Made by a program: the position numbers and the translations under genes. Source: Salipiger abyssi (lineage in GTDB: Bacteria > Pseudomonadota > Alphaproteobacteria > Rhodobacterales > Rhodobacteraceae). Taken from it: DNA of 64,000 nucleotides. The notes under the pieces are model-generated. The model was given only the letters and a program-made list of their open reading frames with translations. It ran no database searches and was not told the DNA's origin. Below, piece after piece: positions 9,472 to 53,469 of the stretch; positions within the stretch are counted from its first letter, which is position 1, and each line of letters starts with the position of its first letter. Location of the stretch: contig NZ_CP015090.1 of NCBI RefSeq assembly GCF_001975705.1, positions 1 through 64,000 of the forward strand. Direction: 5' to 3'.

Positions 9472-9482
9472 GGAGAGAGCAC

Positions 9483-36397: not shown

Positions 36398-36841
36398 TCA
36401 ACCCTGGCCGTCTCCCAGGGCGGCCTGAAGCCTCTGCCGCAACCAGTCGTCGCCCGAGACCTTGGTCAGCGTGCTTTTGGCGACGATCACGCTGGTCAAT
36501 CGCGCGTCAAAACAGCGCTTTCCGCCCTGCTCGGCATATACCACGAATGTCACGCTGCTTGTGCCCAGATGTTCCACGCGGGCCACCAGATCCAGCGGCA
36601 GGCGCGGCGTGATCGGGTGCGAAAAGCTCAGGTTCACGTCCACAAAGGGGGTGCCCCGGTCGTGATCCATGTTCAGTTCGTACCAGCCAATCCCGCCCAG
36701 CACGGATTTCCAGACCGCGTCAATCGCCTCCAGACAATAGTCGAGCGCGCGTGGGGTGTAGAGGATGCCCGCCGGATCGCAATCGCCGAAGGGCACCTCC
36801 CGTGTGCTCCGGATGCAGAGCATTCGGTCGGTCTCGCTCAT
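36398..36841 (-). CDS. Hot-dog acyl-CoA thioesterase (4-hydroxybenzoyl-CoA thioesterase family)
   Basis: 147-residue hot-dog-fold protein. The catalytic motif FGDCDPAGILYTPRALDYC (18-36) includes the Asp-Pro-Ala-Gly typical of the 4-hydroxybenzoyl-CoA/YbgC thioesterase group. It hydrolyses an acyl-CoA thioester. As last gene of the long leftward ali/bad-type unit, 22 bases after etfA, it may recycle CoA from dead-end cyclic or dicarboxylic acyl-CoAs. It ends 13 bases from the convergent AraC gene. Confidence 0.85.
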   Translation of the reverse strand: MSETDRMLCIRSTREVPFGDCDPAGILYTPRALDYCLEAIDAVWKSVLGGIGWYELNMDHDRGTPFVDVNLSFSHPITPRLPLDLVARVEHLGTSSVTFVVYAEQGGKRCFDARLTSVIVAKSTLTKVSGDDWLRQRLQAALGDGQG

Positions 36842-36863
36842 CTCGCCTCCTGCCCCCTCACGT

Positions 36864-37790
36864 TCAGAGCTTTTCGGTCAGCTCGGGCACCGCCTGGAAC
36901 AGATCCGCAACCAGGCCGTAATCGGCGACCTGGAAGATCGGCGCCTCTTCGTCCTTGTTGATCGCGACGATGACCTTGCTGTCCTTCATCCCCGCAAGGT
37001 GCTGAATCGCCCCGGAAATCCCGCACGCGATATACAGATCCGGCGCCACAACCTTGCCCGTCTGGCCGACCTGCCAGTCGTTCGGCGCAAAGCCCGAATC
37101 CACCGCCGCCCGCGACGCGCCCACGGCGGCGCCCAGCTTGTCCGCCAGCGCCTCGATGATCGCGAAATCCTCTTCCGAGCCCACGCCGCGCCCGCCGGAA
37201 ACCACGATCCCCGCCGAGGTCAGCTCGGGCCGGTCGCTCTCGGCCAGCTTGTCCTCGACCCATTCCGAAAGCCCCGGGTTCTCGCCCGCCGCTACGTCCT
37301 CGATGGGCGCAGACCCGCCGGTCGCCGCCGCGTCGAAGGTCGAGGTTCGGAACGTGATAACCTTTTTTTCATCCTTCGATTTTACCGTCTGCATGGCATT
37401 GCCCGCATAGACCGGCCGTTCGAACGTATCCACATCAACCACAGAGGTGACATCCGTCAGAACCATCACATCGAGAAGCGCCGCAACACGCGGCAGGATG
37501 TTCTTGGCATCGGTCGTCGCCGGCGCCACGATATGGCTGTAATCGCCCGCAAGCGACACAACCAGCGCCGCAACCGGCTCTGCCAGGCGGTGGCTGTAAA
37601 GCGCATCCTCCGCCACCAGAACCTTGGCCACGCCGTCGATACTCGCGGCCTCGGCCGCCGCGTCCTTCGCCTGCGCGCCCACCGCCAGAACGGTGACCTC
37701 GCCAAGCGTCGTCGCAGCACTCACAGCCTTTGCGGTGGCGTCCATCGCCAGCGCGCCGTCATTGATCTCTGCCAGAAGAAGAACCGCCAT
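36864..37790 (-). CDS. etfA: Electron transfer flavoprotein, alpha subunit
   Basis: 308 residues from the ATG at 37790; an in-frame GTG one codon upstream is less likely, since [11 protein letters not shown] is the normal EtfA start. The FAD-binding C-terminal domain is visible (VSGGRGVGSEEDF ... LGAAVGASRAAVDSGF ... GKVVAPDLYIACGISGAIQH). EtfAB carries electrons from acyl-CoA dehydrogenases to the respiratory chain through ETF:ubiquinone oxidoreductase. The start is in a TGATG junction with etfB. Placement in this operon supplies the acceptor for its three dehydrogenases. Confidence 0.96.
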   Translation of the reverse strand: MAVLLLAEINDGALAMDATAKAVSAATTLGEVTVLAVGAQAKDAAAEAASIDGVAKVLVAEDALYSHRLAEPVAALVVSLAGDYSHIVAPATTDAKNILPRVAALLDVMVLTDVTSVVDVDTFERPVYAGNAMQTVKSKDEKKVITFRTSTFDAAATGGSAPIEDVAAGENPGLSEWVEDKLAESDRPELTSAGIVVSGGRGVGSEEDFAIIEALADKLGAAVGASRAAVDSGFAPNDWQVGQTGKVVAPDLYIACGISGAIQHLAGMKDSKVIVAINKDEEAPIFQVADYGLVADLFQAVPELTEKL

Positions 37791-38548
37791 CACACCGCCC
37801 CCGCGTCTTTCAGTTTCGCAATCAGCTCATCGACCGAGCCGACCATCTCGCCCGCCTTGCGCGCCGCAGGCTCCGCCGTGCCGACGATCTCAAGCCGCGG
37901 GCTCACATCGACGCCGTAATCGCCGGGCGTCTTCTCCTCGAGCGGCTTCTTCTTCGCCTTCATGATGTTGGGCAGCGAGGCATAGCGCGGCTCGTTGAGG
38001 CGCAGATCGGTGGTCACGATCGCCGGCAGGCCGACCTTGATGGTCTGCAAGCCGCCATCGACCTCGCGCGCCACCACGGCGCTGTCGCCGTCGAGCTCCA
38101 GCGCATTGGCATTGGTGGCCTGCGCCAGCCCCGCCAGCGCCGCCAGCATCTGGCCGGTGGCATTGAGGTCGTTGTCGATGGCCTGCTTGCCGCAGATCAC
38201 CAGCCCGGGCTGCTCTTCCTCGACGATCTTGGCGAGGATCTTGGCCACCGCCAGCGGCTCGATATCCTCGTGCACATCCTCGGCGGCGACCACCAGGATT
38301 GCCCGGTCCGCGCCCATGGCGAGCCCGGTGCGCAGCGTCTCCTGCGCCTGTTTCACCCCGATGGACACCACGATCACCTCATCGGCCTTGCCGGCCTCCT
38401 TCAGCCGGATCGCCTCTTCCACCGCGATCTCGTCGAACGGGTTCATCGACATCTTCACATTCGCCAGATCGACACCCGATCCGTCCGCTTTCACGCGGAC
38501 CTTCACGTTGTAGTCGATCACGCGTTTCACAGGCACCAGGACCTTCAT
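37790..38548 (-). CDS. etfB: Electron transfer flavoprotein, beta subunit
   Basis: 252 residues. I take the ATG at 38548 ([14 protein letters not shown]), 6 bases after GAGGGG; the ATG at 38554 is too close to that site. The conserved [22 protein letters not shown] signature is near 125. It binds AMP and partners EtfA, whose start it overlaps. The first downstream neighbour of the glutaryl-CoA dehydrogenase gene. Confidence 0.96.
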
Positions 38549-38562
38549 AACCATCCCCTCTC

Positions 38563-39750
38563 TCAGAAAAACGCCTGAAGGCCCGTCTGCGCGCGCCCGA
38601 TGATCAGCGCGTGCACGTCATGGGTGCCTTCATAGGTGTTCACGGTTTCCAGATTGACCATATGGCGGATCACCCCGAATTCGGCAGAGATTCCGTTGCC
38701 GCCATGCATGTCGCGGGCGTTGCGGGCAATCTCCAGCGCCTTGCCGCAATTGTTGCGCTTGATGACCGAGATCATCTCGGGCGCCATTTTCCCCGCCTCG
38801 AAAAGCCGCCCGACCCGCAGCGACGCCTGAAGCCCCAGCGAGATCTCGGTCAGCATGTCGGCGAGTTTCTTCTGAAAAAGCTGAGTCTGCGCCAGCGGCC
38901 GGCCGAACTGCTTGCGATCCAGCCCGTATTGCCGCGCAGCGTGCCAGCAGGCCTCCGCCGCGCCCATCACGCCCCAAGCGATGCCGTAACGCGCCCGGTT
39001 GAGGCAGCCGAACGGTCCCGAGAGCCCCTCGGCATTGGGCAGCAGCGCCTCCTCGCCGACCTCGACCCCCTCCATGACGATCTCGCCGGTGATCGAAGCG
39101 CGCAAGGAGACCTTCTTGCCGATCTTCGGCGCCGAGAGCCCCGTCATGCCCTTCTCCAGCACAAAGCCGCGGATCTTGCCGCCATGAGCGTCGGATTTCG
39201 CCCAGACCACAAAGACATCGGCGATGGGGCTGTTGGAAATCCACATCTTGGTGCCGGTGAGCCTGTAGCCGCCGGGGGTCTTCTCGGCGCGGGTCTTCAT
39301 CGCGCCGGGATCGGAGCCCGCATCGGGCTCGGTCAGGCCGAAACAGCCGATCCACTCCCCCGAGGCCAGCCTGGGGAGGTACTTCATCCGCTGCTCTTCC
39401 GAGCCATAAGCGTAGATCGGGTACATCACCAGCGAGCTTTGCACCGACATCATCGAGCGATAGCCGCTGTCCACCCGCTCGACCTCGCGCGCCACAAGGC
39501 CATAGCTCACATAGCCCGCGCCGATGCCGCCATATTGCTCGGGCACCGTCACCCCCAGCAGGCCGAGCGCGCCCATCTCGCGGAAGATCTCCGGGTCGGT
39601 CTCTTCCTCCAGAAAGGCGTGTTCGACGCGCGGCAGCAGCTTGTCCTGACAATAGGTGAAAGCGCTGTCGCGGATCATCCGCTCTTCTTCGGAAAGCTGG
39701 TCGTCCAGCAGGAACGGATCGTCCCAGGCAAAGCGGTTGCTGTCTTTCAT
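38563..39750 (-). CDS. gcdH: Glutaryl-CoA dehydrogenase (decarboxylating)
   Basis: 395-residue acyl-CoA dehydrogenase from the ATG at 39750. The N-terminus [24 protein letters not shown], the segment [19 protein letters not shown] and the C-terminal [43 protein letters not shown] are those of GCDH. The catalytic base is Glu374 in TYEGT. It oxidises and decarboxylates glutaryl-CoA to crotonyl-CoA, passing electrons to ETF. Glutaryl-CoA is the product of pimeloyl-CoA beta-oxidation, which fits the ring-opening enzymes upstream in the same unit. Confidence 0.94.
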
Positions 39751-39766
39751 CGTCTCGTCTCCCTCC

Positions 39767-40972
39767 TCAGGCGCGTTCGAGCAGGATGGCAACGCCCTGC
39801 CCCACGCCCACGCACATGGTGGCCAGCGCATAGCGCCCGCCGGTTTTGCTCAGCTCCAGCGCCGCCGTGCCCGCGATACGCGCCCCCGACATGCCCAGCG
39901 GATGGCCAAGCGCGATGGCGCCGCCATTGCGGTTCACGCGCGGATCGTCATCGGCGATGTCCAACCCCCGCAGCACGGCGAGCCCCTGCGCCGCGAAGGC
40001 CTCGTTCAGCTCGATCACGTCGATCTGGTCGAGCGGCACGCCGCTCAGGGCGCAGAGCTTCTGCACCGCCGGCACCGGGCCATAGCCCATGACGCGTGGC
40101 GCGACCCCCGCCGAGGCGGCGCCGACAATGCGCGCCAGCGGCGTGAGCCCCTGCGCCTTCGCCGCCGCCTTCGAGGCCACGACCAGCGCCGCCGCGCCGT
40201 CATTGACGCCGCTCGCATTGCCCGCCGTCACCGTGCCGTCGGCACGGACGATGGGTTTCAGCCGGGCGAGATCGTCCAGCGTGGTGCCCGCGCGGGGGTG
40301 TTCGTCCTGACTGACCTCGGCGGTTTTGCCACGCCCAAGGTCCACCGTGACTGGCGCAATCTCTTCGGCCAGCCGGCCCGAGCCCATGGCCTCGGCGGCG
40401 CGGGCCTGCGAGCGCAGGGCAAAAGCGTCCTGATCCGCGCGTGAGATTCCGTAGTCGTCGGCGACGTTCTCGGCGGTCTCGGGCATGGAGTCGGTGCCAT
40501 AGGCCGCCGCCATCCTGCGGTTGACGAAGCGCCAGCCAATGGTGGTGTCATGCACCTCGTTGGCGCGACCCCAGGCGGCGCCGGATTTCGGCATCACGAA
40601 GGGCGCGCGGGTCATGCTTTCCACGCCACCAGCCAGTGCCAGCGCCATGTCGCCGGCGCGGATGGCACGGGCGGCAGCGGCAAGCGCCTCCATCCCCGAG
40701 CCGCAAAGCCGGTTGACGGTCACGCCCGGCACCGTCTCCGGCAGCCCCGCCAGCAGCGAAGCCATGCGCGCCACGTTGCGGTTGTCCTCGCCCGCCTGAT
40801 TGGCGCAGCCCAGCCAGACCTCCTCGATGGAGGCCGGATCGAGCGACGGGTTGCGCGCCAGAAGCGCGCTCAGCGGATGCGCGGCGAGATCGTCGGCGCG
40901 CACTTTTGCCAGCGCGCCGCCATAGCGGCCGATGGGCGTGCGGATATAATCGCAGATAAAGGCGTCGGTCAT
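39767..40972 (-). CDS. Thiolase (3-oxoadipyl-CoA / 3-oxoacyl-CoA thiolase type)
   Basis: 401-residue thiolase with catalytic Cys90 ([11 protein letters not shown]), His357 ([10 protein letters not shown]) and Cys387 (TMCVGVGQG). The sequence start [32 protein letters not shown] closely follows the PcaF/PaaJ 3-oxoadipyl-CoA thiolases. In this operon it should cleave 3-oxopimelyl-CoA to glutaryl-CoA and acetyl-CoA, a dicarboxylic substrate one carbon longer; it could also serve the protocatechuate branch fed by PobA. It lies 16 bases before gcdH and 3 bases after the fused HAD gene. Confidence 0.9.
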
Positions 40973-40975
40973 GTC

Positions 40976-43042
40976 TCACCCTCCCTCATGATCGAGATCG
41001 GCCAGGCTCCGCCCCTCCTCCGCCAGCCGCTGCAACAGCGGCGGAACGGACCAGGAGAGCGGATCGGCCTTGGCATAGGTTGCGATGCGGTCGCGCAGTA
41101 CCGGCAGACCGATGCGGTCCGCCTCGCACATCGGTCCGCCGCGCCAGCGCGGAAAGCCGTAGCCATGCAGCAGCACCAGGTCGATATCGGCGGCGCGGCG
41201 GGCGATGCCCTCGTCGAGAATGCGCAGCCCCTCGTCGATCATCGCGGTCAGGGCGCGCTGGCGGATTTCCTCGGCATCGAAGGCGCGGCGGGTGATGCCG
41301 GCCTCGCGCGAGGCCGCTTCGATCAGCGCCTGCACCCCGGCGCCGGGCGTCGGCGCGCCTTCGCCGTAATCGTACCAGCCCGCGCCAGTCTTGTGCCCGA
41401 GGCGACCCAGATCCTCGACCATGCGGTCGGCGACGGGGATATAGCGGAGGCCCTGCGCGTTGCGCAGATTTTTGCGCTGGCGGTTGGCATAGGCGATGTC
41501 GAGCCCCGAGAGATCCTGCACCGCATAAGGGCCCATGGCCATGCCGAAGCCCAGCATCGCCGCGTCCACCTGCCAGGGCAGCGCGCCCTCGATCAGCATC
41601 ACGTCGCAGATCTGCCGGTAGCGGGTCAGGATACGGTTGCCGATGAACCCGTCGCAGACCCCGGCCTCGACGGCGATCTTGCGCAGCTTTGCCGCGAGGC
41701 CGAAGGCGCTGGCGAGGGTCTCGTCCGAGGTGGTCCCGGCGCGGATGATCTCCAAGAGCTTCATCACATGGGCGGGGCTGAAGAAATGCAGGCCAAGGCA
41801 GCGCTCCGGCGCGCGGGTGCCCGCAAAGATCTCGTTCACATCGAGATAGGAGGTATTGGTGGCGAGGATCGCGGTTTCGGGCAGCGCCGCGTCGAGCGCG
41901 GCAAAGACCTCGCGCTTGACGGCAAGATCCTCGAACACCGCTTCGATGGCGATGTCGGCGGCGGGCAAAGCGTCGTAGCCGGTCACCACCGCGATGCGGG
42001 CCTTGCCTTGGGCAGAGGCCTCTGGGCTGGCCTTGCCGCGCTTTACCGCGTCGTCGAAAAGCTTGCCCAGATTGGCCTCGGCGCGGGCGGCGGCCTCCGT
42101 GCCGGTTTCCACCAGCGTAACCGCAAGGCCGATGCCGTCGAGCGCATAGGCGATGCCCGCGCCCATGGTGCCGCCGCCCACCACCACGGCGGTTTTCAGA
42201 TCGCGGGGCGGCACGGAAAAGCGTTTCGCGCGGGCCAGGGCGGCACGTTCGGCAAAGAAGACATGGCGCAGGGCACGGGCCTGCGGACCCCGGCGCAGGT
42301 TGAGGAACTGCGCCCGCTCGCGCGCCAGCCCCTCGGGCAGCGGCAGCTCGGCGCTGGCCGCCACCAGATCGAGCGCCACCTGCGGCGCGAATTGGCCCTT
42401 TGCCCGCTTGCCCGCACGGGCGCGAGCCGCGGCGATGGCCTCGGGATCTGCGACGGGCGCGGGGCGGGCGCTTGCGGGCAGGACATCGGCCAGCGCAGCT
42501 TCGGGCAGCGCCTTTGCGGCGGCAACCGGATCGGCGTCGATGGCATCGACGATGCCCATGCGCAGCGCCTCCTCAGCCGTGAAGCGGCGACCTTCCGAGA
42601 TCAGCGCGGCGGCGCTGGCGATGCCCACCAGCCGTGGCAGCCGTTGCGTGCCCCCCGCGCCGGGCACCACGCCCAGCGTCACCTCGGGCAGCCCCAGAGC
42701 CACCCCGGGCGCCGCAATGCGCATCCGGCAGGCCAGCGCGATCTCCAGCCCGCCCCCAAGCGCCACCCCGTTGATCGCGGCGATGCTGGGCAGGCGTTCC
42801 AGCCGGTTGAGGATGTCGGGCAGATGCGGCGCCAGCGGCGGGCTGTCGAATTCCCGCGTATCCGATCCGGCGGCAAAGGCACTGCCCGCGCCGGTGATCA
42901 CGATGCGCTGCACGCCCGCCGCGTCGGCGGCATCGAGCGCCTCGACCAGCCCCACCCGCGTCTCAAGGCCGATGACATTCACCGGCGGCGTGTCGAGCGT
43001 GATCAGGCAAAGACTGCCCTGAAAGAGCGTATGCACAGGCAT
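40976..43042 (-). CDS. Fused enoyl-CoA hydratase / 3-hydroxyacyl-CoA dehydrogenase
   Basis: 688-residue bifunctional beta-oxidation protein. N-terminal crotonase domain (1-190) with GVALGGGLEIALAC and GLPEVTLGVVPGAGGTQRL, which hold both catalytic glutamates. The NAD-binding HAD domain starts near 295 (VVGGGTMGAGIAYALDGIGLAVTLVE), followed by two C-terminal HAD domains (VCDGFIGNRILTRY is the conserved part). It hydrates and oxidises the enoyl-CoA formed from pimeloyl-CoA or its products. No trifunctional isomerase motif is obvious beyond the crotonase domain. Coupled closely to thiolase and an SDR. Confidence 0.93.
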   Translation of the reverse strand: MPVHTLFQGSLCLITLDTPPVNVIGLETRVGLVEALDAADAAGVQRIVITGAGSAFAAGSDTREFDSPPLAPHLPDILNRLERLPSIAAINGVALGGGLEIALACRMRIAAPGVALGLPEVTLGVVPGAGGTQRLPRLVGIASAAALISEGRRFTAEEALRMGIVDAIDADPVAAAKALPEAALADVLPASARPAPVADPEAIAAARARAGKRAKGQFAPQVALDLVAASAELPLPEGLARERAQFLNLRRGPQARALRHVFFAERAALARAKRFSVPPRDLKTAVVVGGGTMGAGIAYALDGIGLAVTLVETGTEAAARAEANLGKLFDDAVKRGKASPEASAQGKARIAVVTGYDALPAADIAIEAVFEDLAVKREVFAALDAALPETAILATNTSYLDVNEIFAGTRAPERCLGLHFFSPAHVMKLLEIIRAGTTSDETLASAFGLAAKLRKIAVEAGVCDGFIGNRILTRYRQICDVMLIEGALPWQVDAAMLGFGMAMGPYAVQDLSGLDIAYANRQRKNLRNAQGLRYIPVADRMVEDLGRLGHKTGAGWYDYGEGAPTPGAGVQALIEAASREAGITRRAFDAEEIRQRALTAMIDEGLRILDEGIARRAADIDLVLLHGYGFPRWRGGPMCEADRIGLPVLRDRIATYAKADPLSWSVPPLLQRLAEEGRSLADLDHEGG

Positions 43043-43054
43043 GGGAGTAAATCC

Positions 43055-43807
43055 TCACAGATGCGGGCGGATCCCGCCGGAGACCGACAGCATGTCGCCG
43101 GTGACGAAACGGGCCTCGTCGGTCAGGAAAAACGCGATGGCCTCGGCCACCTCTTCGGGGTCCGCCATGCGGCGGTTCATGGCGAGCCCGGTAAGCCGGG
43201 CCTGCTGGTCGTCGGGCATGTTCTCGGTCACCGAGGTGCGGGTCAGCCCCGGCGCCACGCAGTTCACCGTCACATGCGGCGCGAATTCCGCCGCCATGGA
43301 GCGCGACAGCGAGGCGACCGCCGCCTTGGCCGCCGCGTAATCCGCCTGCCCCGCCTCGCCGCCGTAGACGATGGAGGCCACGTTGACGATCCGGCCCCAG
43401 CCGCGCTCCAGCATCACCGGCACAAAGGCGCGGCTCAGATGCAGCGTGCCCGCGAGGTTCAGATCCAGCGTCGCGCGCCATTGCGCGGGCGCGATTTCGA
43501 GCAGCGGGGTATAAAGCTGCCTGCCGCGCAGCCCGCCCACGAGATTGACCAGCAGGTCGATGCCTCCGAAGGCAGCGAGCGCCTCCTCGGCAAAGCTTTG
43601 AGCCTCTTGCGCATCGGTCACGTCACCCCGAATGGCAACATGAGGGAGACCGGGGGGAAGCGCCGCGACAGCCGCATCCAGGCGGCGGGAGGAAATGTCG
43701 GTCAGCGCAACCCCCACGACCCCGCCAGCGACGAGACGGTCGAGCACGGCCCGGCCCATGGGCCCGCCGGCGCCGCTCAGCGCTGCGATGCGGGTGGCAA
43801 AGCTCAT
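43055..43807 (-). CDS. Atypical short-chain dehydrogenase in the ali/bad-type operon
   Basis: 250-residue SDR from the ATG at 43807, which overlaps the CoA ligase stop by 4 bases. Catalytic Ser145, Tyr157 and Lys161 (GQADYAAAKAAVA) are intact. The cofactor loop reads SGAGGPMG (11-18) instead of TGxxxGIG, and the NNAG motif is NLVG (88-91). It may be a second hydroxyacyl-CoA dehydrogenase alongside BadH, or act on a substituted ring. It has no counterpart in the core ali/bad pathway as I know it. Confidence 0.85.
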   Translation of the reverse strand: MSFATRIAALSGAGGPMGRAVLDRLVAGGVVGVALTDISSRRLDAAVAALPPGLPHVAIRGDVTDAQEAQSFAEEALAAFGGIDLLVNLVGGLRGRQLYTPLLEIAPAQWRATLDLNLAGTLHLSRAFVPVMLERGWGRIVNVASIVYGGEAGQADYAAAKAAVASLSRSMAAEFAPHVTVNCVAPGLTRTSVTENMPDDQQARLTGLAMNRRMADPEEVAEAIAFFLTDEARFVTGDMLSVSGGIRPHL

Positions 43808-45453
43808 GCCAGCCCCATCTCCTCGCGCAGCATCTTGCGCAGCGCGAATTTCTGGATCTTGCCGGAGGCGGTCGAAGGCAGCTTGTCGCGCAGCTCCAGC
43901 CGCTCCGGCCAATAGGTCTTGGAGAAGTGGCTTTGCGATAGGAAGGCTGTCATCTCGTCGAAACTCAGGCTCATGCCCGGCTTCGGGACCACAAAGGCGC
44001 AGGCGCGTTCGCCCAGCCGGTCATCGGGATAACCCACGATGGCCACCGAGGCGATGGCGGGGTGTTTGAAAAGGGCCGCCTCGACCTCGATCACCGGGAT
44101 GTTCTCGGCGCCGCGAATGATGATGTCCTTGGAGCGTCCGCAGATGCGGATATAGCCGCTGTCATCGGCCCGCGCGATGTCGCCAGTGTCGAACCAGCCC
44201 TCGGCATCCACATTGTTGAGCTGCGGACGCTTGAGATAGCCACCGAAATTCGAACAGCCCCGCACGAACAGCTCGCCCTCCTCATGCGGCTCGGCGGGGG
44301 TGCCGTCGGATCGGCGGATCTGAAGCTCCATCCCGCGCAGCGGATAGCCGTCGGTATGCACCGAGCGGTCGTCCGGATCGTCGAGATTGGTGAGCGTCAC
44401 CGCGCCGTTCTCGGTCATGCCCCAGGCCGAAACGATCTTGGTGCCCAGCACCGCATGGGCGCGTTCGACCACCGGGCCGGGGATCGCGGTGCCCGCGCAA
44501 AGGAAGGTACGGAGGGTGGAGCTATCGGTGCCGCCCTCCTCCACCGCATTGGCGAGGTCCATGAGGAAAGGGGTCGAGGCCATGGTGAAGGTGCATTTTT
44601 CCTCCTCCACCACGCGGGCGGCGACATCCTTGTCCCAGGTGTCGAGCAGCACCGCCCCGGCCTGAAGCTGCACGGGCATCAAAAGCCCGTACATAAAGCC
44701 AGTCTGATGGGCCATGGGCGAGGCCATCAGAACCACGTCCCCGGACCCGAGCTTCAACCGCTCGGCATAGGGCACGAGGTTGGAATACATGGTGTTGGCG
44801 GTGTGCATCGCGCCCTTGGGCTCGCCCGTGGTGCCAGAGGTATAGATGAGCTGGCAGACCGCGTTCGCGTCGGGTCGGTTTTCCGTGACGATGCGCGCCA
44901 GTTCGGGATCCTTGTCGGAGGCCGGGTCCATCAGCACGCGGTCGAAATCGCGCGCGCCCTCGCCGCCCGCGACGACAACATGCTGGAGGTCCGGCAGATT
45001 GCCGAGCATGCCGTCGGTCATCTCTTCATGGTCGAAGCCGCGAAACAGCTTGGGGATGACAAAGACCTTCGCCTCGCCATGGCGCAGCATGAAGCACAGC
45101 TCATGCTCGCGGAAGATATGCATCACCGGGTTGAACACGGCGCCAAGCCGGGCGCAGCCCAGATAGGTGACGACGAATTGCCAGGAGTTCGGCAGCTGGC
45201 AGGCGACCACATCGTCCTTGCCCACCCCCAGCCGCGACAGGCCCACGGCGGCGCGGTTGGCCAAAACGTCCAGCTCGCGCCAGGTCAGATCGCGGCGTTC
45301 GCCGGTCGAGACCACGATGGAGGTCAACGCCCGCTTGTCCGGGCAATCCCGCAGGCAGGCGTCGAAATAATCGTTGACGGTCTTGCCCTGCCAGAAGCCC
45401 TTTTCGGTCATCTCCTGGATGCGCGGCGCAATCAGGACGGCATCGAATTTCAT
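43804..45453 (-). CDS. aliA: Cyclohexanecarboxylate-CoA ligase-like acyl-CoA synthetase
   Basis: 549-residue AMP-forming ligase from the ATG at 45453, preceded by GGAGGAGA. P-loop YTSGTTGEPKGAMHT near 190, SAWGMTENGAV, the YIRICGRSKDIIIRGAENI hinge motif, and the acylation Lys in STASGKIQKFALR are all present. The N-terminus RIQEMTEKGFWQGKTVNDYFDACL is characteristic of the AliA-type ligases. It activates cyclohexanecarboxylate (or a related alicyclic acid) to its CoA thioester, the entry step of the pathway; the adjacent aliB, badI and badH homologues support this over a fatty-acid role. Confidence 0.87.
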   Translation of the reverse strand: MKFDAVLIAPRIQEMTEKGFWQGKTVNDYFDACLRDCPDKRALTSIVVSTGERRDLTWRELDVLANRAAVGLSRLGVGKDDVVACQLPNSWQFVVTYLGCARLGAVFNPVMHIFREHELCFMLRHGEAKVFVIPKLFRGFDHEEMTDGMLGNLPDLQHVVVAGGEGARDFDRVLMDPASDKDPELARIVTENRPDANAVCQLIYTSGTTGEPKGAMHTANTMYSNLVPYAERLKLGSGDVVLMASPMAHQTGFMYGLLMPVQLQAGAVLLDTWDKDVAARVVEEEKCTFTMASTPFLMDLANAVEEGGTDSSTLRTFLCAGTAIPGPVVERAHAVLGTKIVSAWGMTENGAVTLTNLDDPDDRSVHTDGYPLRGMELQIRRSDGTPAEPHEEGELFVRGCSNFGGYLKRPQLNNVDAEGWFDTGDIARADDSGYIRICGRSKDIIIRGAENIPVIEVEAALFKHPAIASVAIVGYPDDRLGERACAFVVPKPGMSLSFDEMTAFLSQSHFSKTYWPERLELRDKLPSTASGKIQKFALRKMLREEMGLA

Positions 45454-45528
45454 GGTGTCTCCTCCGCTGTCGTGGCAGGCTGGGCGCCGGGGTCTCCTCA
45501 CCCCTGTGGCGCGGCTGCCGGTGTCGGC

Positions 45529-46686
45529 TCAGGCGCTCAGCGCGGCCTTGCCGGCCCGTTCCCGGGCGATGATGTTCTTCATGATGTGCGCGGTGCCGTC
45601 GCCGATCTGGAGGCCCAGCACGTCACGCAGACGCTGCTGGAACGGCAGATCGTCGGCATAGCCCGCATGGCCGTGGATCAGCAGGCAGGCATGGATCGCC
45701 TCATAGGCCAGAAGCGGCGGCCACCATTTGGTCATCGCGGCTTCGGCGGTGTGCGGCAGGCCCTTGTCCTTGAGCCAGAGCGCGTTCATCGACATCAGCC
45801 GCGCCGCCTCGACCTTGGTGTCGAAGTCGGCGAGCTGATGGGTGACGCCCTGAAAGGCGCCCAGCGGTTTGCCAAAGGCGCGGCGCTCGCCGATATAATC
45901 CCAGGTCTCGTCCAGGCTCTGACGTGCGGTGCCAAGCGCCTGAAGCCCGATCAGCGAGCGCGAGAAATCGAAGCCCTGCATGACCTGGGCAAAGCCCTTG
46001 CCCTCATCGCCCAGCAGATACTCCGCCGGCACCCGCACGTTGTCGAACCAGATCGAGCCATGACCCACCGAGTTCTGCCCGCAATTGGAGAACTTCGACG
46101 TGGTGATCCCCGGCGCATCCAGCGGCACAAGCACCGCCGAAACCCCGCGCGCCCGGTCCTCTGCCGTGCCTGTGCGGGCGAAGGTCACCACGCCCTTGGC
46201 GATCTGGTTGGCGGAAATCGAGGTCTTTTCGCCGTTGAGGATATAGTGATCCCCGTCGCGCTCCATCTTGAGCCCGAGATTGGCGGCGTCCGATCCGCCC
46301 CTGGGTTCGGTCAGCGCGATGGCCAGCATATGCTCGCCCGCGATGAGGCCCGGAAGCCAGTCGCGCGCCACTTCGGGTCTGGCGAACTGCTTGAGGATCT
46401 GGCCGTTCAGCGAGGCGAGCAGCGGCGCATAGCCGAATGTGAAATCCGCGCGGCCGATCTCTTCGATGATCACGCCGGAATAGGTCACCTCGGCGCCCAT
46501 GCCGCCGAATTCCTCGGGCAGTTCCGGCGCGATGAGGCCCAGCTCGCCCATCTCGCGCAGAAGCGCCATGTCGAACCTGCCCGATTTCTCGCGCTCCATA
46601 TAGCCCGGCGCCACCCGCTCCTGCGCGAATTTGCGGGCCAGATCGCGGATCTGGGTCAGTTCCTCGGTGTCGAAAATCGTCTGCAC
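45529..46686 (-). CDS. aliB: Cyclohexanecarboxyl-CoA dehydrogenase-like acyl-CoA dehydrogenase with Asp at the catalytic-base position
   Basis: 385-residue FAD acyl-CoA dehydrogenase. The start is a GTG at 46686 behind GGGAGGA; there is no ATG near. TEPRGGSDAANL and the C-terminal HGHAGYADDL are family landmarks. Where most acyl-CoA dehydrogenases have YEGT with the catalytic Glu, this protein has GDGT with Asp363 (codon GAC, plus-strand 45598-45600), which I checked on the sequence. It should introduce the ring double bond (cyclohexanecarboxyl-CoA to cyclohex-1-ene-1-carboxyl-CoA). It lies between badI and aliA homologues; electrons go to the EtfAB encoded downstream. Confidence 0.88.
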   Translation of the reverse strand: MQTIFDTEELTQIRDLARKFAQERVAPGYMEREKSGRFDMALLREMGELGLIAPELPEEFGGMGAEVTYSGVIIEEIGRADFTFGYAPLLASLNGQILKQFARPEVARDWLPGLIAGEHMLAIALTEPRGGSDAANLGLKMERDGDHYILNGEKTSISANQIAKGVVTFARTGTAEDRARGVSAVLVPLDAPGITTSKFSNCGQNSVGHGSIWFDNVRVPAEYLLGDEGKGFAQVMQGFDFSRSLIGLQALGTARQSLDETWDYIGERRAFGKPLGAFQGVTHQLADFDTKVEAARLMSMNALWLKDKGLPHTAEAAMTKWWPPLLAYEAIHACLLIHGHAGYADDLPFQQRLRDVLGLQIGDGTAHIMKNIIARERAGKAALSA

Positions 46687-46714
46687 GCTGTCCTCCCTCA
46701 GCAAACTTCCAGTG

Positions 46715-46735
46715 CCCCCGGCGCAAGGCCGGGGG
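46715..46735 (-). other. Perfect 8-bp GC stem-loop between badI-like and aliB-like genes
   Basis: CCCCCGGC, 5-base loop, GCCGGGGG, in the 58-base gap and just before the GTG start of the aliB-like gene. No T-run. It may set the relative expression of the two halves of the operon. Confidence 0.5.
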
Positions 46736-46744
46736 TGGCGGGGA

Positions 46745-47527
46745 TCACTTCCCGAATTTGCGGAAATCGGGTTTGCGCTTTTCCTTGAAGGCGATGCCGC
46801 CTTCCTTGCTTTCGTCGGTGTCGTAGTAGAGCGACAGCCCCAGCATCCCGAGCCCCGCGATGCCGCGCTGATGTTCGGTGTCCATGTTGAAGCTGCGCTT
46901 GGCGAGCGCGATGGCCGTCGGCGACCGGTCCATGATCTCGGCGCACCAGCCTGCGACCTCGGCGTCGAGCTCCTCATGCGGCACGACCTTGTTGACCAGC
47001 CCCATCTCCAGCGCTTCCTGCGCGGTGTAGCGGCGGCACATGTACCAGATCTCGCGCGCCTTCTTTTCGCCGACGATGCGCGACAGAAAGGCGGTGCCAA
47101 AGCCGGGATCGACCGAGCCGACCTTGGGGCCGACCTGGCCGAACACCGCGCGGTCGCCCGCGATGGTCATGTCGCAGATCGTCGCCAGCACATTGCCGCC
47201 GCCGATGGCAAAGCCCTGCACCTTGGCGATGACCGGCTTGGGGATGTCGCGGATGATCGAATGCAGATCCTCCATCGGCAGGCCGATGGTGCCGCGCCCG
47301 TCATATTGCCCCTCATGCGCCGACTGGTCGCCGCCGGTGCAGAAGGCCTTTTCGCCCGCGCCCGACAGCACCACCACGCCGACGGATTTGTCCCAGCCCG
47401 CGGTGTTGAAGGCGTCGATCAGCTCTTCGCAGGTCTTGCCGCGAAAGGCGTTGTATTTGTCGGGGCGGTTGATGGTGATCCAGGCCGCGCCGTCTTTGAC
47501 CTCGTACAGAATATCTTCGTAGCTCAT
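46745..47527 (-). CDS. badI: 2-Ketocyclohexanecarboxyl-CoA hydrolase
   Basis: 260-residue crotonase-superfamily ring-opening hydrolase. Its whole course (DILYEVKDGAAWITINRPDKYNAFRG, GVVVLSGAGEKAFCTGGDQ, KPVIAKVQGFAIGGGNVLATICD, FGQVGPKVGSVDPGFGTAFL, REIWYMCRRYTAQEALEMG) matches the BadI branch near MenB. It hydrolyses 2-ketocyclohexanecarboxyl-CoA to pimeloyl-CoA, the committed ring-opening step. It follows the badH homologue by 13 bases. Of all genes here this one identifies the pathway best. Confidence 0.93.
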   Translation of the reverse strand: MSYEDILYEVKDGAAWITINRPDKYNAFRGKTCEELIDAFNTAGWDKSVGVVVLSGAGEKAFCTGGDQSAHEGQYDGRGTIGLPMEDLHSIIRDIPKPVIAKVQGFAIGGGNVLATICDMTIAGDRAVFGQVGPKVGSVDPGFGTAFLSRIVGEKKAREIWYMCRRYTAQEALEMGLVNKVVPHEELDAEVAGWCAEIMDRSPTAIALAKRSFNMDTEHQRGIAGLGMLGLSLYYDTDESKEGGIAFKEKRKPDFRKFGK

Positions 47528-47540
47528 GTCCGGCCCTCCC

Positions 47541-48314
47541 TCAGCCGTGCATCGTCAGGCCGCCGGAGACCGACAGCACCTGGCCGGTGATGAACCCGGC
47601 ATCGTCGCTTGCGAAAAAGGCGATGGCGCCCGGCAGATCGCCCGGCAAACCCAGCCGCCCCATGGGCACCGCCCGCGTGAAGGCGGTGCGCAGCTTTTCC
47701 TTGTCGCCCGCCGCCTCCATGAAGGCGTCGAGCATGGCGGTATCGGTCACGCCGGGGCAGACCACATTGACGCTGATGCCCTGACGGGCATGTTCGCGGG
47801 CGATGGTCTTGGAAAAGGCGATGACGCCGGCCTTGCAGGCGGCATAGACCGACTCTCCCGACGACCCGCCGCGTGCCGCGTCAGAGGCCAGCGAGACGAT
47901 CCTGCCCGCCTTGCGCTCGGCCATAAGCGCCAGCACCGGATGGGTGATGTTCAGCACCCCGCGCAGGTTGATGTCGATGATCTTGGTCCAGAATTCCGGG
48001 CCGCTTTTCAGGAAGGGCGTGAAGATGTCCCAGCCCACCCCATTGACCAGCACGTCGATGGGCCCAAGCTCGGCCTCGATCCGCGCCACGGCCGCCGCCG
48101 TCGCCTCCGCATCGGTCAGATCGACCGCCACGGCGAGCCCTTCGCCGCCGATCCCGGCGATCTGCGCCACGACGGTTTCCGCCGCCGCCTGATTCAGATC
48201 GACCACCGCAACGCGGGCGCCTTCCTCGGCAAAGCGCAAACAGGTTGCTGCACCGATGCCGCCACCGCCGCCGGTTACGACAACAATTTTACTTTTCAGA
48301 CCTCTCACGAACAT
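47541..48314 (-). CDS. badH: 2-Hydroxycyclohexanecarboxyl-CoA dehydrogenase
   Basis: 257-residue SDR from the ATG at 48314 behind AGGAG. Motifs TGGGGGIG (14-21), NGVG in place of NNAG (91-94), Ser144, Tyr157, Lys161 (ESVYAACKAGVIAFSKT). The stretch GWDIFTPFLKSGPEFW and RIVSLASDAARGGSSGES follows the BadH pattern rather than general FabG. It oxidises 2-hydroxycyclohexanecarboxyl-CoA to the 2-keto thioester that BadI opens. First gene of the leftward 11-gene unit, 210 bases from the divergent MarR gene. Confidence 0.92.
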   Translation of the reverse strand: MFVRGLKSKIVVVTGGGGGIGAATCLRFAEEGARVAVVDLNQAAAETVVAQIAGIGGEGLAVAVDLTDAEATAAAVARIEAELGPIDVLVNGVGWDIFTPFLKSGPEFWTKIIDINLRGVLNITHPVLALMAERKAGRIVSLASDAARGGSSGESVYAACKAGVIAFSKTIAREHARQGISVNVVCPGVTDTAMLDAFMEAAGDKEKLRTAFTRAVPMGRLGLPGDLPGAIAFFASDDAGFITGQVLSVSGGLTMHG

Positions 48315-48440
48315 TCTCCTTCCAGGTCGCATGGCGCGCGGGAAATCGCGGAAACTTGGCTATTTAAGCCGGATTTCGTGGTTTGCCTCCCAACGCCACA
48401 GCTCCTCAACGTGACAAAGCCAACCTGACTCGGCTCGCAT

Positions 48441-48464
48441 TTTATGTCAAGCTATTTACATTAA
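48441..48464. promoter_or_regulatory. Spaced element TTTATG-N8-TTTACATTAA in the badH/marR promoter region
   Basis: Same words with the same 8-base spacing occur at 50384-50407 in front of the badK homologue. The ends TTTATG and CATTAA form an imperfect inverted repeat over 12 bases, a shape used by MarR dimers. It lies centrally in the 210-base divergent gap, so it could control both directions. Confidence 0.7.
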
Positions 48465-48524
48465 TATTTCGACCAAGAGAGCATTTCGTTGACGCGCCAG
48501 CGAAATCCCGCCAGAGTCCAAGAC

Positions 48525-49028
48525 ATGGACCAAACCGCGCCCCCACAGGCCGATCCGCAGATCGACGATCTGGCGAACCGGCTGTTCTTCCGGCTCTACC
48601 AGTCGGCAAATCTGCTGCACAAAAGCGGCACGAAAGCGCTGGAAGAAACCCACATCACCACCCAGCAATGGGCGATCATCGGCGCGCTCACCCGCCCCGG
48701 CGTCGAAGCCGGAATCGCGGTGGGAGAGTTGTCGCAGTTTCTCATGGTCAGCCGGCAGAACCTCACGGGGATCCTGTCACGGCTTGAACGCGACGGGCTG
48801 ATCGAGCGGGTGACCTCGCCCAGCGATGCGCGCAGCCGGCTGATCCGGCTGTCCGAGCGCGGTCGCGCTCTGTGGCGCAACGATATGGCCAGGCTTATCT
48901 CCGGGTTCTACGACGCCGCGCTGGACGGATTTTCCACCACCGACAAGATCCACACGATCCACTATCTCGACCGGCTGCTGGAGAACATGAAGCACCTCGA
49001 CCCGGAGGCCGAGGCGGATCCGTCATAG
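48525..49028 (+). CDS. badR: MarR-family regulator, BadR-like
   Basis: 167 residues from the ATG at 48525 (an earlier in-frame ATG at 48489 is possible; neither has a strong ribosome site). The winged helix is about 52-120: TTQQWAIIGALTRPG, VGELSQFLMVSRQNLTGILSRLERDGLIERVTSPSDARSRLIRLSERG. MarR repressors are released by small aromatic or alicyclic acids or CoA esters; BadR does this for the ali/bad genes in Rhodopseudomonas palustris. The position divergent from badH is the expected one. Its 3' end overlaps the convergent dehydrogenase gene by 6 bases. Confidence 0.88.
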   Translation: MDQTAPPQADPQIDDLANRLFFRLYQSANLLHKSGTKALEETHITTQQWAIIGALTRPGVEAGIAVGELSQFLMVSRQNLTGILSRLERDGLIERVTSPSDARSRLIRLSERGRALWRNDMARLISGFYDAALDGFSTTDKIHTIHYLDRLLENMKHLDPEAEADPS

Positions 49029-50189
49029 GCCGAGACGCGCGCGGGCCTCGGCGGCCATGGTCCGGGCGATGATGCCCTGCTGGATCTGGGTCGTGCCCTC
49101 ATAGATGCGGAACAGCCGCGCGTCGCGAAAGAGCTGCTCGGCGCGGTATTCGCGGATATAGCCCGCGCCGCCATGCACCTGCACATTGCGGTCGGCGACC
49201 CGCCCCACCATTTCCGAAGCGAACATCTTGGCGCAGGAGGCAAGCGTGGCCACGCTCTCGCCCGCATCGCGGCGGCGCGCCGCATCCTCGACCATGGCGC
49301 GCGCGGCATAGGCCTCGGCCCGGCTGTCCGCGAACATCACCTGAAGCATCTGGAAATCGGCGATCGGCTTGCCGAACTGCTTTCGCGTCACCGCATAATC
49401 CATCATGTCGTCCATGATCCGCTCGGCCAGCCCGACGCAGGCGGCGGCGATGTGCAGCCGCCCCTTGTCGAGCACCTTCATCGCGGTCTTGAACCCCATA
49501 CCCTCGACACCGCCGATCAGCGCGGAAGCCGGCACCCGGCAGTTCTCGAAGATCACGTCGCAGACATGCGCGCCCTGCTGGCCCATCTTCTTTTCCGGCC
49601 TGCCGGTCGACAGGCCCGGCAGCCCCGCCTCGACCGCGAAGGCCGACACACCCTGCGCGCCCTTCTGCGCCGGATCGGTGCGGGCCATCACCGTGAACAG
49701 CCCCGCCAGCGGCGCATTGGTGATGTAGCGCTTGGTGCCGTTCAGGATATAACTGTCGCCGTCGCGCAGCGCGGTCGTGCGCACCGAGCCTGCATCCGAA
49801 CCGACATCCGGCTCGGTCAGCGCGAAGGAGCCGATCAGCTCACCCGACGCGATGCGCGGCAGATATTGTGCCTTTTGCTCGGGCGTACCGTCGATCACGA
49901 GCCCCTGCGAGCCGATGCCGACATTGGTGGCAAAGAGCGACCGGAAGGCCGGCGCGGCACGGCCGATCTCAAAGATCAGCGCCGCCTCTTCCGACATGGT
50001 AAGCCCCAGCCCGCCGAACTCCTCGGGAATCGACAGGCCGAAGAGGCCCAGCTCCTTCATCTCCTCGACGATCAGGTCGGGGATCGAATCGCTTTCAGCG
50101 ACCTCCGCCTCGGCGGGTAACAGCCGCTCGTCGACAAAGCGGCGAATGGTTGCAACAAGTTGCTCGCGCGTCTCCAGGTCCAGAGTCAT
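49023..50189 (-). CDS. Acyl-CoA dehydrogenase (second, with normal Glu base)
   Basis: 388 residues from the ATG at 50189, 8 bases after GGAGGAGG (the ATG at 50204 lies before that site). LTEPDVGSDAGSV, FGKPIADFQMLQVMFADSRAEAYAARAMV and the catalytic Glu364 in FRIYEGTTQIQQ are intact. It oxidises an acyl-CoA to the 2-enoyl-CoA with ETF as acceptor. It could be the pimeloyl-CoA dehydrogenase of the lower pathway, or a BadJ-type cyclohexanecarboxyl-CoA dehydrogenase; the normal Glu contrasts with the AliB homologue. It is a single gene facing left, with its own AT-rich promoter. Confidence 0.87.
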   Translation of the reverse strand: MTLDLETREQLVATIRRFVDERLLPAEAEVAESDSIPDLIVEEMKELGLFGLSIPEEFGGLGLTMSEEAALIFEIGRAAPAFRSLFATNVGIGSQGLVIDGTPEQKAQYLPRIASGELIGSFALTEPDVGSDAGSVRTTALRDGDSYILNGTKRYITNAPLAGLFTVMARTDPAQKGAQGVSAFAVEAGLPGLSTGRPEKKMGQQGAHVCDVIFENCRVPASALIGGVEGMGFKTAMKVLDKGRLHIAAACVGLAERIMDDMMDYAVTRKQFGKPIADFQMLQVMFADSRAEAYAARAMVEDAARRRDAGESVATLASCAKMFASEMVGRVADRNVQVHGGAGYIREYRAEQLFRDARLFRIYEGTTQIQQGIIARTMAAEARARLGL

Positions 50190-50218
50190 CGCATCCTCCT
50201 CCATCAGTATTTAAGCAA

Positions 50219-50236
50219 ATATATTGTCATATATTG
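50219..50236. repeat. Tandem ATATATTG repeat, 10-bp period
   Basis: ATATATTG (50219-50226), TC, ATATATTG (50229-50236): two identical 8-mers exactly one helical turn apart, 30 bases upstream of the dehydrogenase start at 50189. The same region reads TTTAAG-N8-TTGTCATATA (50210-50233), a weak match to the spaced element found at 48441 and 50384. Confidence 0.55.
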
Positions 50237-50383
50237 ATGTTACGCAAGAGACTTTCTCTTTTCTCCGCCACAACGCACCGCAGACGCGCACCCTTCATTC
50301 ACGGAAAATCATGGCAATAAACCCGAATCTCCAGGCCACACGCGACCGCAAAACTGCGCCATCACAAGTACAGGCTTGCCACA

Positions 50384-50407
50384 TTTATGCAAATCTGTTT
50401 ACATTAA
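50384..50407. promoter_or_regulatory. Spaced element TTTATG-N8-TTTACATTAA upstream of badK-like gene
   Basis: Second copy of the element at 48441-48464: both words and the 8-base gap are identical while the gap sequence differs (CAAATCTG here, TCAAGCTA there). It lies about 175 bases before the start codon at 50583. Confidence 0.7.
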
Positions 50408-50582
50408 ATTCAAGAGGGAGGAGACGGATGACGGCAACCATGCCGCACCGGCGGAGCCGTGACGGCTGCGCGGCGGGAGCGATCATTCAACCGAAACCGG
50501 ATGACGGCATCACCCGATGGCCGCGGCCCGCATCAACCTGCCATCCCCAGACAGGCCCCTCCCTGCACAGAGGAGTTTCCAG

Positions 50583-51368
50583 ATGAAAGACCTGCCCTAC
50601 GAGACCGTGCTCACGGAAACCGACGGGCCCGTCGGCATCCTGCGGCTGAACCGGCCCGAGGCGCTGAACGCGCTGAACACGCAGATCACCACCGAGATGC
50701 ATGCCGCGCTCGATGCGTTCGAGGCCGATGACGCCATCCACGCCATCGTCATCACCGGCAGCGACACCGCCTTTGCCGCCGGCGCCGATATCAAGGAGCT
50801 GCGCGACAAGACCATGGTCGAGGTCTGGGACGAAAACCTCATCACCGCCACCTGGGAACGCGCCGCCTCCTGCCGCAAGCCGACCGTGGCGGCTGTCTCG
50901 GGCTTTGCCATGGGCGGCGGCTGCGAGCTGGCGCTGATGTGCGACATCATCGTCGCCTCCGAGACCGCGCGCTTTGCCCTGCCGGAAACGAAGATCGGCG
51001 TGATCCCTGGCGCGGGCGGCACCCAGCGGCTGACCCGCGCGGTGGGCAAGGCCATCGCCATGGACATGATCCTGTCGGGCCGCCCGATGACCGCCGAGGA
51101 AGCGCTGGCGCGCGGGCTGGTCAGCCGCGTCGCCCCCGTCGAAAGCTATCTGCAAGAGGCCGTAACGCTGGCGCAGGAGATCGCGCAAAGCTCGCGCCCG
51201 ATCCTGCGCATGGCGAAAGAGGCGGTGAACCACGCTTACGAGACCCATCTCGCCGAAGGCATCCACCTCGAGCGCCGCCTGCTCTACGCGACATTCGGCA
51301 CCGAAGACCGCCGCGAAGGCATGAGCGCCTTTGCCGAAAAGCGCCCGCCGCAGTTCCGGCATCGCTAA
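50583..51368 (+). CDS. badK: Enoyl-CoA hydratase, probable cyclohex-1-ene-1-carboxyl-CoA hydratase
   Basis: 261-residue crotonase-family hydratase from the ATG at 50583 behind AGAGGAG. FAMGGGCELALMCD and FALPETKIGVIPGAGGTQRLTRAVGK carry both catalytic glutamates, so it is a true hydratase. General enoyl-CoA hydratases look alike; the assignment to the BadK step rests on its place in the cluster and on the promoter element it shares with badH/marR. It would form 2-hydroxycyclohexanecarboxyl-CoA for BadH. A hairpin follows its stop. Confidence 0.85.
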   Translation: MKDLPYETVLTETDGPVGILRLNRPEALNALNTQITTEMHAALDAFEADDAIHAIVITGSDTAFAAGADIKELRDKTMVEVWDENLITATWERAASCRKPTVAAVSGFAMGGGCELALMCDIIVASETARFALPETKIGVIPGAGGTQRLTRAVGKAIAMDMILSGRPMTAEEALARGLVSRVAPVESYLQEAVTLAQEIAQSSRPILRMAKEAVNHAYETHLAEGIHLERRLLYATFGTEDRREGMSAFAEKRPPQFRHR

Positions 51369-52908: not shown

Positions 52909-53469
52909 ATGCGGGCAATCATCGAAACACTCGACAAGGCGCTTGGCGTGGTGGAACGGTTTGCCGCGCTGATCGCGGGGCTGCTGATCCTGGCGCTGAT
53001 GTCGCTGGTCTGCGCCGAGGTGCTGGGCCGCGGCCTTTTCAACCATGCCATTCGGGGCTCCATCGACATCGTCGAACAGCTCATGGTGGCGCTGGTGGCT
53101 TTGGGCATCGCCTATTGCCAGAGCCATTTCGGCAATGTCCGGATGACGCTGGTCAGCGACCGCTGCCGGGGCCGCGCGAAATGGCTGTCAGAGCTTTTCG
53201 CGCTCGCCGTCGCGCTGTTTGTGGTGGTGATCCTCACCAAGGGCAGCTGGCTGAACTTCATGCGCTCCTGGAACAATGGCGGCGACACGCCCGAGATCGG
53301 TATTCCGCTCTGGCCCGGCATCCTGCTGGTGACCTGCGCGCTAGGGCTGCTGGCGCTGCGGCTGGCGCTGCAATCGGCAGAGGCGCTGCGGCTGCTGGCA
53401 CAGCCCGGCGATGGTTCGAAGCTTTTCGGCCATCCGGCGGACGCCATCGAAACCACCCCCTACGAATAA
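52909..53469 (+). CDS. TRAP transporter small permease (DctQ)
   Basis: 186-residue membrane protein with four hydrophobic segments, the standard DctQ build. Start behind GACGGGAGG. The stretch SIDIVEQLMVALVALGIAYCQSHFGNVRM is a recognisable family part. It forms the membrane complex with the DctM protein encoded 10 bases downstream. Confidence 0.9.
   Translation: MRAIIETLDKALGVVERFAALIAGLLILALMSLVCAEVLGRGLFNHAIRGSIDIVEQLMVALVALGIAYCQSHFGNVRMTLVSDRCRGRAKWLSELFALAVALFVVVILTKGSWLNFMRSWNNGGDTPEIGIPLWPGILLVTCALGLLALRLALQSAEALRLLAQPGDGSKLFGHPADAIETTPYE

Follow-up and report, generated by a model that had tools for sequence, protein, structure and literature searches.

We analyzed a 64,000-nucleotide stretch of DNA from Salipiger abyssi (positions 1 to 64,000 of contig NZ_CP015090.1; hereafter the window) that contains a bad-ali gene cluster predicted to degrade the alicyclic acid cyclohexanecarboxylate. 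The core of the cluster is a run of eleven genes on the minus strand, the starts of which were picked among open reading frame candidates. These genes are transcribed in the order BadH (47541–48314), BadI (46745–47527), AliB (45529–46686, with a GTG start), AliA (43804–45453), the short-chain dehydrogenase SDR2 (43055–43807), a FadB-like fused enoyl-CoA hydratase/3-hydroxyacyl-CoA dehydrogenase (40976–43042), a PcaF-type beta-ketothiolase (39767–40972), glutaryl-CoA dehydrogenase (GCDH; 38563–39750), the beta and alpha subunits of electron transfer flavoprotein (ETF), EtfB (37790–38554) and EtfA (36864–37793), and a 4HBT_2-type thioesterase (36398–36841). Genes within the run are separated by intergenic gaps of 3–75 bases or overlap by 4 bases, as SDR2 and aliA do. 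The gene for BadR, a MarR-family regulator (48525–49028, plus strand; Pfam MarR_2), is divergent from badH. An acyl-CoA dehydrogenase gene designated ACAD2 (49023–50204, minus strand) lies tail to tail with badR. The enoyl-CoA hydratase that is the BadK candidate (50583–51368) and the TRAP genes DctP (51772–52848), DctQ (52909–53469), and DctM (53480–54778) occupy the plus strand and are divergent from ACAD2.

A preliminary description of this locus had named homologs of the upper and lower pathway genes between 36398 and 51368, and profile matches place all of them there. Their supposed arrangement in pathway order is incorrect; the minus-strand order is badH-badI-aliB-aliA, followed by the lower pathway genes. 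The description also placed eleven genes on one strand behind the MarR gene. The MarR gene itself is on the plus strand together with the BadK candidate, only ten of the named genes are on the minus strand, and the number eleven is reached only when SDR2 is counted. Moreover, the gene list presented as complete lacked the pimeloyl-CoA dehydrogenase step and overlooked SDR2, ACAD2, and the TRAP genes. The gene content supports the central claim, namely a bad/ali route that brings its own beta-oxidation along with GCDH and ETF.

Comparisons with relatives were based on a set of loci fetched by BadI alone, 80 of which were kept from 517 relatives. A BadH homolog was found in 70 of the 80 loci, and a BadR homolog with at least 45% identity in 71. 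BadR, BadH, BadI, AliB, and AliA occur together in 61 of these BadI-fetched loci, which indicates that their grouping is beyond chance.

The enzymes of the upper pathway were scored with NCBIfam models against curated equivalog cut-offs. Three of them exceed the cut-off of their own family: BadI, 2-ketocyclohexanecarboxyl-CoA hydrolase (TIGR03210; 491.0 bits compared with 467.6); AliA, cyclohexanecarboxylate-CoA ligase (TIGR03208; 818.3 compared with 792.3); and AliB, cyclohexanecarboxyl-CoA dehydrogenase (TIGR03207; 581.7 compared with 575.35). BadH is assigned as the probable 2-hydroxycyclohexanecarboxyl-CoA dehydrogenase by its context as well as by its sequence. The BadK candidate matches PRK05862 best (371.9 bits, below the cut-off of 396). 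In a tree of hydratases, it groups with cluster-linked alphaproteobacterial hydratases (99/100). Synteny and a predicted operator tie the BadK candidate to the cluster, and its sequence is not separable from those of general hydratases. According to a study of the bad-ali cluster in Aromatoleum sp. CIB (Sanz and Diaz 2022, PMC9795900), badK is absent from most Burkholderiales clusters and from some others. A separate observation concerns AliB, which carries the motif GDGT where GCDH and ACAD2 have YEGT; GDGT is found in all 76 AliB relatives at 55% identity or higher (76/76). Aspartate thus stands at what we take to be the place of the usual glutamate base.

The genes that follow aliA encode a lower pathway. 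The fused enzyme matches Pfam ECH_1, 3HCDH_N, and 3HCDH. The thiolase, whose substrate may be 3-oxopimeloyl-CoA, exceeds the cut-offs of two models, PRK09050 for 3-oxoadipyl-CoA thiolase (680.2 compared with 605) and pcaF (649.4 compared with 597). When GCDH was compared with solved structures, the best match was 4w9u (E = 2e-213), which is named only acyl-CoA dehydrogenase; rows 2–10 of the 14 matches are all named glutaryl-CoA dehydrogenase, beginning at E = 2.5e-189. EtfA matches Pfam ETF and ETF_alpha, and EtfB matches Pfam ETF. Motifs that we take to be catalytic are present in the thiolase, the fused enzyme (hydratase motif and HFFxP), GCDH (TYEGTHD and DSGYRS), ACAD2, the BadK candidate, and both short-chain dehydrogenases (in SDR2, YAAAK at residue 157). 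The thioesterase that ends the run matches Pfam 4HBT_2 with 37 bits and has a homolog (36% identity) in the same place on a plasmid of Paracoccus sp. MC1862. SDR2 (Pfam adh_short_C2) has a homolog at 55% identity or higher in 21 of the 80 loci and matches the model for cis-4-hydroxycyclohexanecarboxylate dehydrogenase weakly (130 bits compared with a cut-off of 350).

Pimeloyl-CoA must be dehydrogenated before the hydratase/dehydrogenase step can proceed. ACAD2 is the best candidate for this reaction. Its closest paralogs in the S. abyssi genome are 38–39% identical, whereas acyl-CoA dehydrogenases of alphaproteobacterial bad-ali loci are 74–90% identical; two of these loci (L014 and L025) aligned only in pieces. 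The identity is 69% in two loci (L020 and L066) where the acyl-CoA dehydrogenase does not adjoin badR and 59–60% for the enzymes that nine Burkholderiales loci encode downstream of aliA. Cluster-linked acyl-CoA dehydrogenases of Alphaproteobacteria and Burkholderiales join one another in a tree (100/100), apart from ten other acyl-CoA dehydrogenases of the S. abyssi genome. In Aromatoleum sp. CIB, the pimelyl-CoA dehydrogenase AabA is encoded directly downstream of badI (PMC9795900). We assign ACAD2 the AabA role as a candidate because this step is otherwise missing, ACAD2 is linked to the cluster in the tree, and aabA lies near badI in CIB; the assignment is made from context. With ACAD2 included, a dehydrogenase, a hydratase, a hydroxyacyl dehydrogenase, and a thiolase are all linked to bad-ali, as in the aab lower pathway.

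Because the exact published BadR operator is absent from the promoters of the cluster, we derived an operator matrix from 28 relatives, using the region between badR and badH in each and excluding the window. The matrix sites have, by eye, a near-palindromic consensus of about TGTNAAN4TTNACA, and overlapping matches on the opposite strand therefore also score high. The top three separate places in the 64 kb are located at 48440–48461 between the divergent promoters of badR and badH (38.2 bits), at 50213–50234 in the ACAD2 promoter (29.9 bits), and at 50383–50404 upstream of the BadK candidate and the TRAP genes (26.2 bits). The best score in 20 Markov sequences of 64 kb was 12.3 bits, and the best match in the window away from the cluster scores 6.7 bits. 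The three strong sites, one of which lies at the promoter of the BadK candidate and the TRAP genes, suggest a single BadR regulon that would include its own uptake system.

A census of sites scoring at least 13 bits within 450 bases upstream of genes in the 80 loci detected a site at 69 of 70 badH genes, a count that includes the badH sites of 28 loci on which the matrix had been trained. Sites were also found at 19 of 29 ACAD2 genes, 4 of 29 hydratase genes, and 0 of 8 dctP genes; 34 of the 159 peaks are near no named gene, and 7 loci lack any peak. Of the ten ACAD2 genes that lack a site, nine are found in Burkholderiales, inside the run and downstream of aliA. A gene for a zinc-dependent dehydrogenase between the site and the hydratase gene, checked with Pfam in one locus (L033), may partly explain the low count for the hydratase. 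In that Paracoccus locus, the dehydrogenase gene (L033, 6121–7143) is positioned between the hydratase and ACAD2 genes, which are direct neighbors in the window. Three Xanthobacter loci contain extra operator-like sites of 21.8–26.7 bits downstream of the cluster (L054 at 18647, L055 at 19484, and L069 at 20256), where they are near no named gene.

DctP (Pfam DctP), a candidate binding protein for alicyclic acids, has distant relatives among solved structures (best match, 56 bits); its partners match Pfam DctQ and DctM. Among the 61 loci that encode all five proteins from BadR to AliA, the hydratase and a TRAP system occur at 60% identity or higher in 7, and a gap of 4.6–4.8 kb separates badI from aliB in 12. 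No locus among the 61 has both the TRAP system and the gap. The probability of observing zero by chance is about 0.2 (hand calculation), which makes this exclusion suggestive only. The sole insert checked (L029) encodes a periplasmic binding protein, two branched-chain-type permeases, and two ATPases.

The window forms the start of a contig of 188,936 bases (C2) that carries repA-, repB-, and repC-type genes; the bad-ali cluster is therefore probably borne on a repABC plasmid. Two other gene sets on this contig lie within the window. One is pyruvate-dehydrogenase-like (7279–10721), with E1 alpha and beta in one frame followed by E2; the other (17344–20018) consists of hydantoinase/oxoprolinase-like and S-Me-THD-like genes that overlap by 4 bases.

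Among 198 genomes of the same family, 6 (S. abyssi and 5 of the other 197) have a BadI match with an E value of 1e-100 or better, and in 4, again including S. abyssi, BadI exceeds the curated cut-off; the sole genome of the same genus among those listed lacks it. Relatives of AliA (E = 1e-150) occur in 6 of 72,556 plasmid records. The eleven-gene run recurs in identical order on the plasmid of Paracoccus sp. MC1862 (NZ_CP067226.1), again with a divergent MarR gene; homologs of ACAD2 (79% identity) and the hydratase (72%) are encoded nearby. In contrast to the window, these two genes are located at the other end, and branched-chain-type ABC permease and ATPase genes are found nearby with no TRAP match in the stretch. 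On plasmid pPAN3 of P. pantotrophus, the genes follow one another in the same relative order; there, badI and aliB are separated by an insert, and a gap precedes the thioesterase gene. The nearest relatives of the cluster proteins point to a Rhodobacterales-type host, although a cluster that moves between genomes says little about the organism that carries it.

Deletion of bad-ali in Aromatoleum sp. CIB revealed that the cluster serves growth on cyclohexanecarboxylate with and without oxygen, and the same paper describes bad-ali-aab clusters that include the aab lower pathway (PMC9795900). It also reports linked gcdH and etfAB in Thauera phenolivorans and linked gcdH in other Gram-negatives; Paracoccus appears there in the reference list only. 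The S. abyssi cluster resembles that of CIB in its AliA, AliB, BadH, BadI, MarR-type BadR, dedicated acyl-CoA dehydrogenase, and linked lower pathway. It differs in that badR and badHI-aliBA are transcribed divergently, as in Rhodopseudomonas palustris; a single fused protein provides hydratase and dehydrogenase in the lower pathway; ACAD2 forms a separate unit behind badR; and a TRAP system, an extra short-chain dehydrogenase, and a probable plasmid location are added. The badHI-aliBA-badK operon of R. palustris, as described in the same source, shares the badH-badI-aliB-aliA order and the divergent badR. Unlike that operon, the run in S. abyssi does not end in badK and has the lower pathway attached, and its host genome has no HGD-D family gene. 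Two other candidates for comparison were rejected. The fetched stretch of the Azoarcus sp. KH32C plasmid, considered as a stand-in for CIB, shows badHI and no aliA match and could not be used for comparison of aab; the "cyclohexanecarboxylate-CoA ligase" of Polaromonas JS666 (48% identical) lies in a different gene neighborhood, with no badHI annotated in the stretch. Because aerobic function and linkage of bad-ali to aab, gcdH, and etfAB had already been published (PMC9795900), the present cluster is a good, well-supported example of a described pathway type, and the novelty implied by the preliminary description is weak.

The relation of the cluster to oxygen was assessed across the S. abyssi genome (completeness 100). 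The search of the full genome for benzoyl-CoA reductase that the preliminary description had proposed yielded 0 matches to PF06050, the HGD-D family, which we take to represent the B/C type of that enzyme. The broad ATPase family PF01869 has one match over the cut-off (38.8 compared with 31.5 bits, on contig C5) and one below it (27.1 bits); 8 of the 14 control genomes likewise have matches over the cut-off, and the result is not telling. BoxB has 0 matches in the genome, and NirK and NarG have none over the cut-off, with weak partial matches only. The earlier proposal of an aerobic role with no benzoyl-CoA reductase nearby is thus upheld as to the absence of HGD-D matches; together with the BoxB, NirK, and NarG results, that absence is consistent with an aerobic role but is not proof of one.

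We conclude that the window very probably contains a bad-ali cluster joined to a lower pathway that combines the aab type with gcdH-etfBA. The cluster probably resides on a repABC plasmid of a Rhodobacterales-type alphaproteobacterium, where it would carry out oxygen-independent chemistry in a probably aerobic cell. From the gene content, gene order, and family memberships observed, we infer the following route. The TRAP system would import cyclohexanecarboxylate, and AliA would form its CoA ester. AliB would dehydrogenate cyclohexanecarboxyl-CoA and probably pass the electrons to EtfBA. The BadK candidate may then hydrate the product, BadH would oxidize it, and BadI would open the ring to generate pimeloyl-CoA. 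Dehydrogenation of pimeloyl-CoA by ACAD2 would be followed by hydration and oxidation by the fused enzyme, and the thiolase would release acetyl-CoA and glutaryl-CoA. GCDH would convert the latter to crotonyl-CoA and CO2. The shared operator-like sites suggest that BadR represses three promoters, and a CoA intermediate may lift this repression.

Sequence alone does not fix the substrate, and the same chemistry could serve another natural compound, such as a substituted or monoterpene-derived cyclohexanecarboxylate or cyclohexenecarboxylate, of which plain cyclohexanecarboxylate would be a mimic. Consistent with this idea, SDR2 stands outside the assigned steps and might act on an additional hydroxyl group, and badKHI sets without aliAB were suggested to function in monoterpene degradation in Aromatoleum strains (PMC9795900). 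However, aliA and aliB are both present in S. abyssi, and both proteins exceed their cut-offs. In addition, an AliA/BadR reporter described in that source responds to cyclohexanecarboxylate and slightly to benzoate, but not to cyclohexane-1,2-dicarboxylate or pimelate. We consider a different natural substrate unlikely. Less likely still is that the fused enzyme, thiolase, GCDH, and ETF constitute a general set for beta-oxidation of dicarboxylates that stands beside bad-ali by chance. The fit of the thiolase to 3-oxoadipyl-CoA models and a second GCDH (81% identity) on another contig of the genome favor this possibility, as do the low counts of the fused gene (16 of 80 loci) and GCDH (2 of 80) within the fetched flanks; these counts are lower bounds because the flanks end at most 10 kb from BadI. 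Against it, the whole run lies on one strand with the tight spacing noted above, and two Paracoccus plasmids show the same succession of lower pathway genes after aliA.

The chance that BadI is in fact MenB and that AliA is a medium-chain ligase, which would mean that the cluster is not alicyclic, is in our view vanishingly small. The preliminary description had raised this as the contrary outcome, and we reject it on the curated cut-offs. BadI scores 342 bits with the MenB model, which is below the MenB cut-off of 380, and falls below the cut-offs of all MenB models while exceeding its own; AliA scores 818 bits with its own model and 442 with that of the medium-chain ligase. A BadI phylogeny of 40 rows, a check proposed in the same description, agrees in part. 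BadI belongs to a supported set of four with BadI proteins from bad clusters, and three annotated MenB proteins form a group of their own (90/100). The deeper fork that joins BadI and MenB lacks resolution, and one long-branched paralog from the S. abyssi genome falls inside it.

Several observations weigh against our assignment of the cluster and its regulon. The score of BadH with its best family, TIGR03206, is 382.1 bits and falls below the cut-off of 431.2. The BadK candidate is a general-type hydratase that is 54% identical to a paralog from its own genome, and it does not join firmly with the Burkholderiales hydratases encoded downstream of aliA. SDR2 appears to have no place among the proposed steps. 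No exact CAAN4TTG core occurs at the three promoters (the window contains 7 copies, with 7.06 expected). In CIB, changes at the first or second base of this core abolished binding of BadR (PMC9795900), and the sites in the window depart from it at a base essential for that binding. The next matrix match in the window, with 13.9 bits, lies inside the start of badH (48273–48294), and the rest of the contig contains one 15.6-bit site (L107 at 540) with no cluster gene near it. No operator was found directly before dctP, which begins 403 bases from the hydratase gene. Finally, a simple test for circularity found no shared ends of the contig.

A keyword-level literature search found neither a TRAP system tied to such a cluster nor a plasmid setting in Rhodobacterales. 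It is tempting to speculate that the alicyclic catabolon of marine and related Rhodobacterales is one three-promoter BadR regulon that includes uptake, and that uptake is an exchangeable module consisting of either a TRAP system or ABC genes inserted between badI and aliB. DctP would then bind cyclohexanecarboxylate, a first among TRAP binding proteins, and the operator would be the longer near-palindrome, with CAAN4TTG as one of its forms. We judge this proposal about equally likely to be right or wrong.

The cluster opens no new class of metabolism. What is new here is the probable plasmid location, the three predicted operator sites, and the suggestion of a regulon with TRAP uptake. Together, the genes appear to form a self-contained package, probably plasmid-borne, for degradation of an alicyclic acid that is a component of naphthenic acids. 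The host genome has no HGD-D type benzoyl-CoA reductase genes, and the cluster offers concrete genes and promoters for work on uptake and control.

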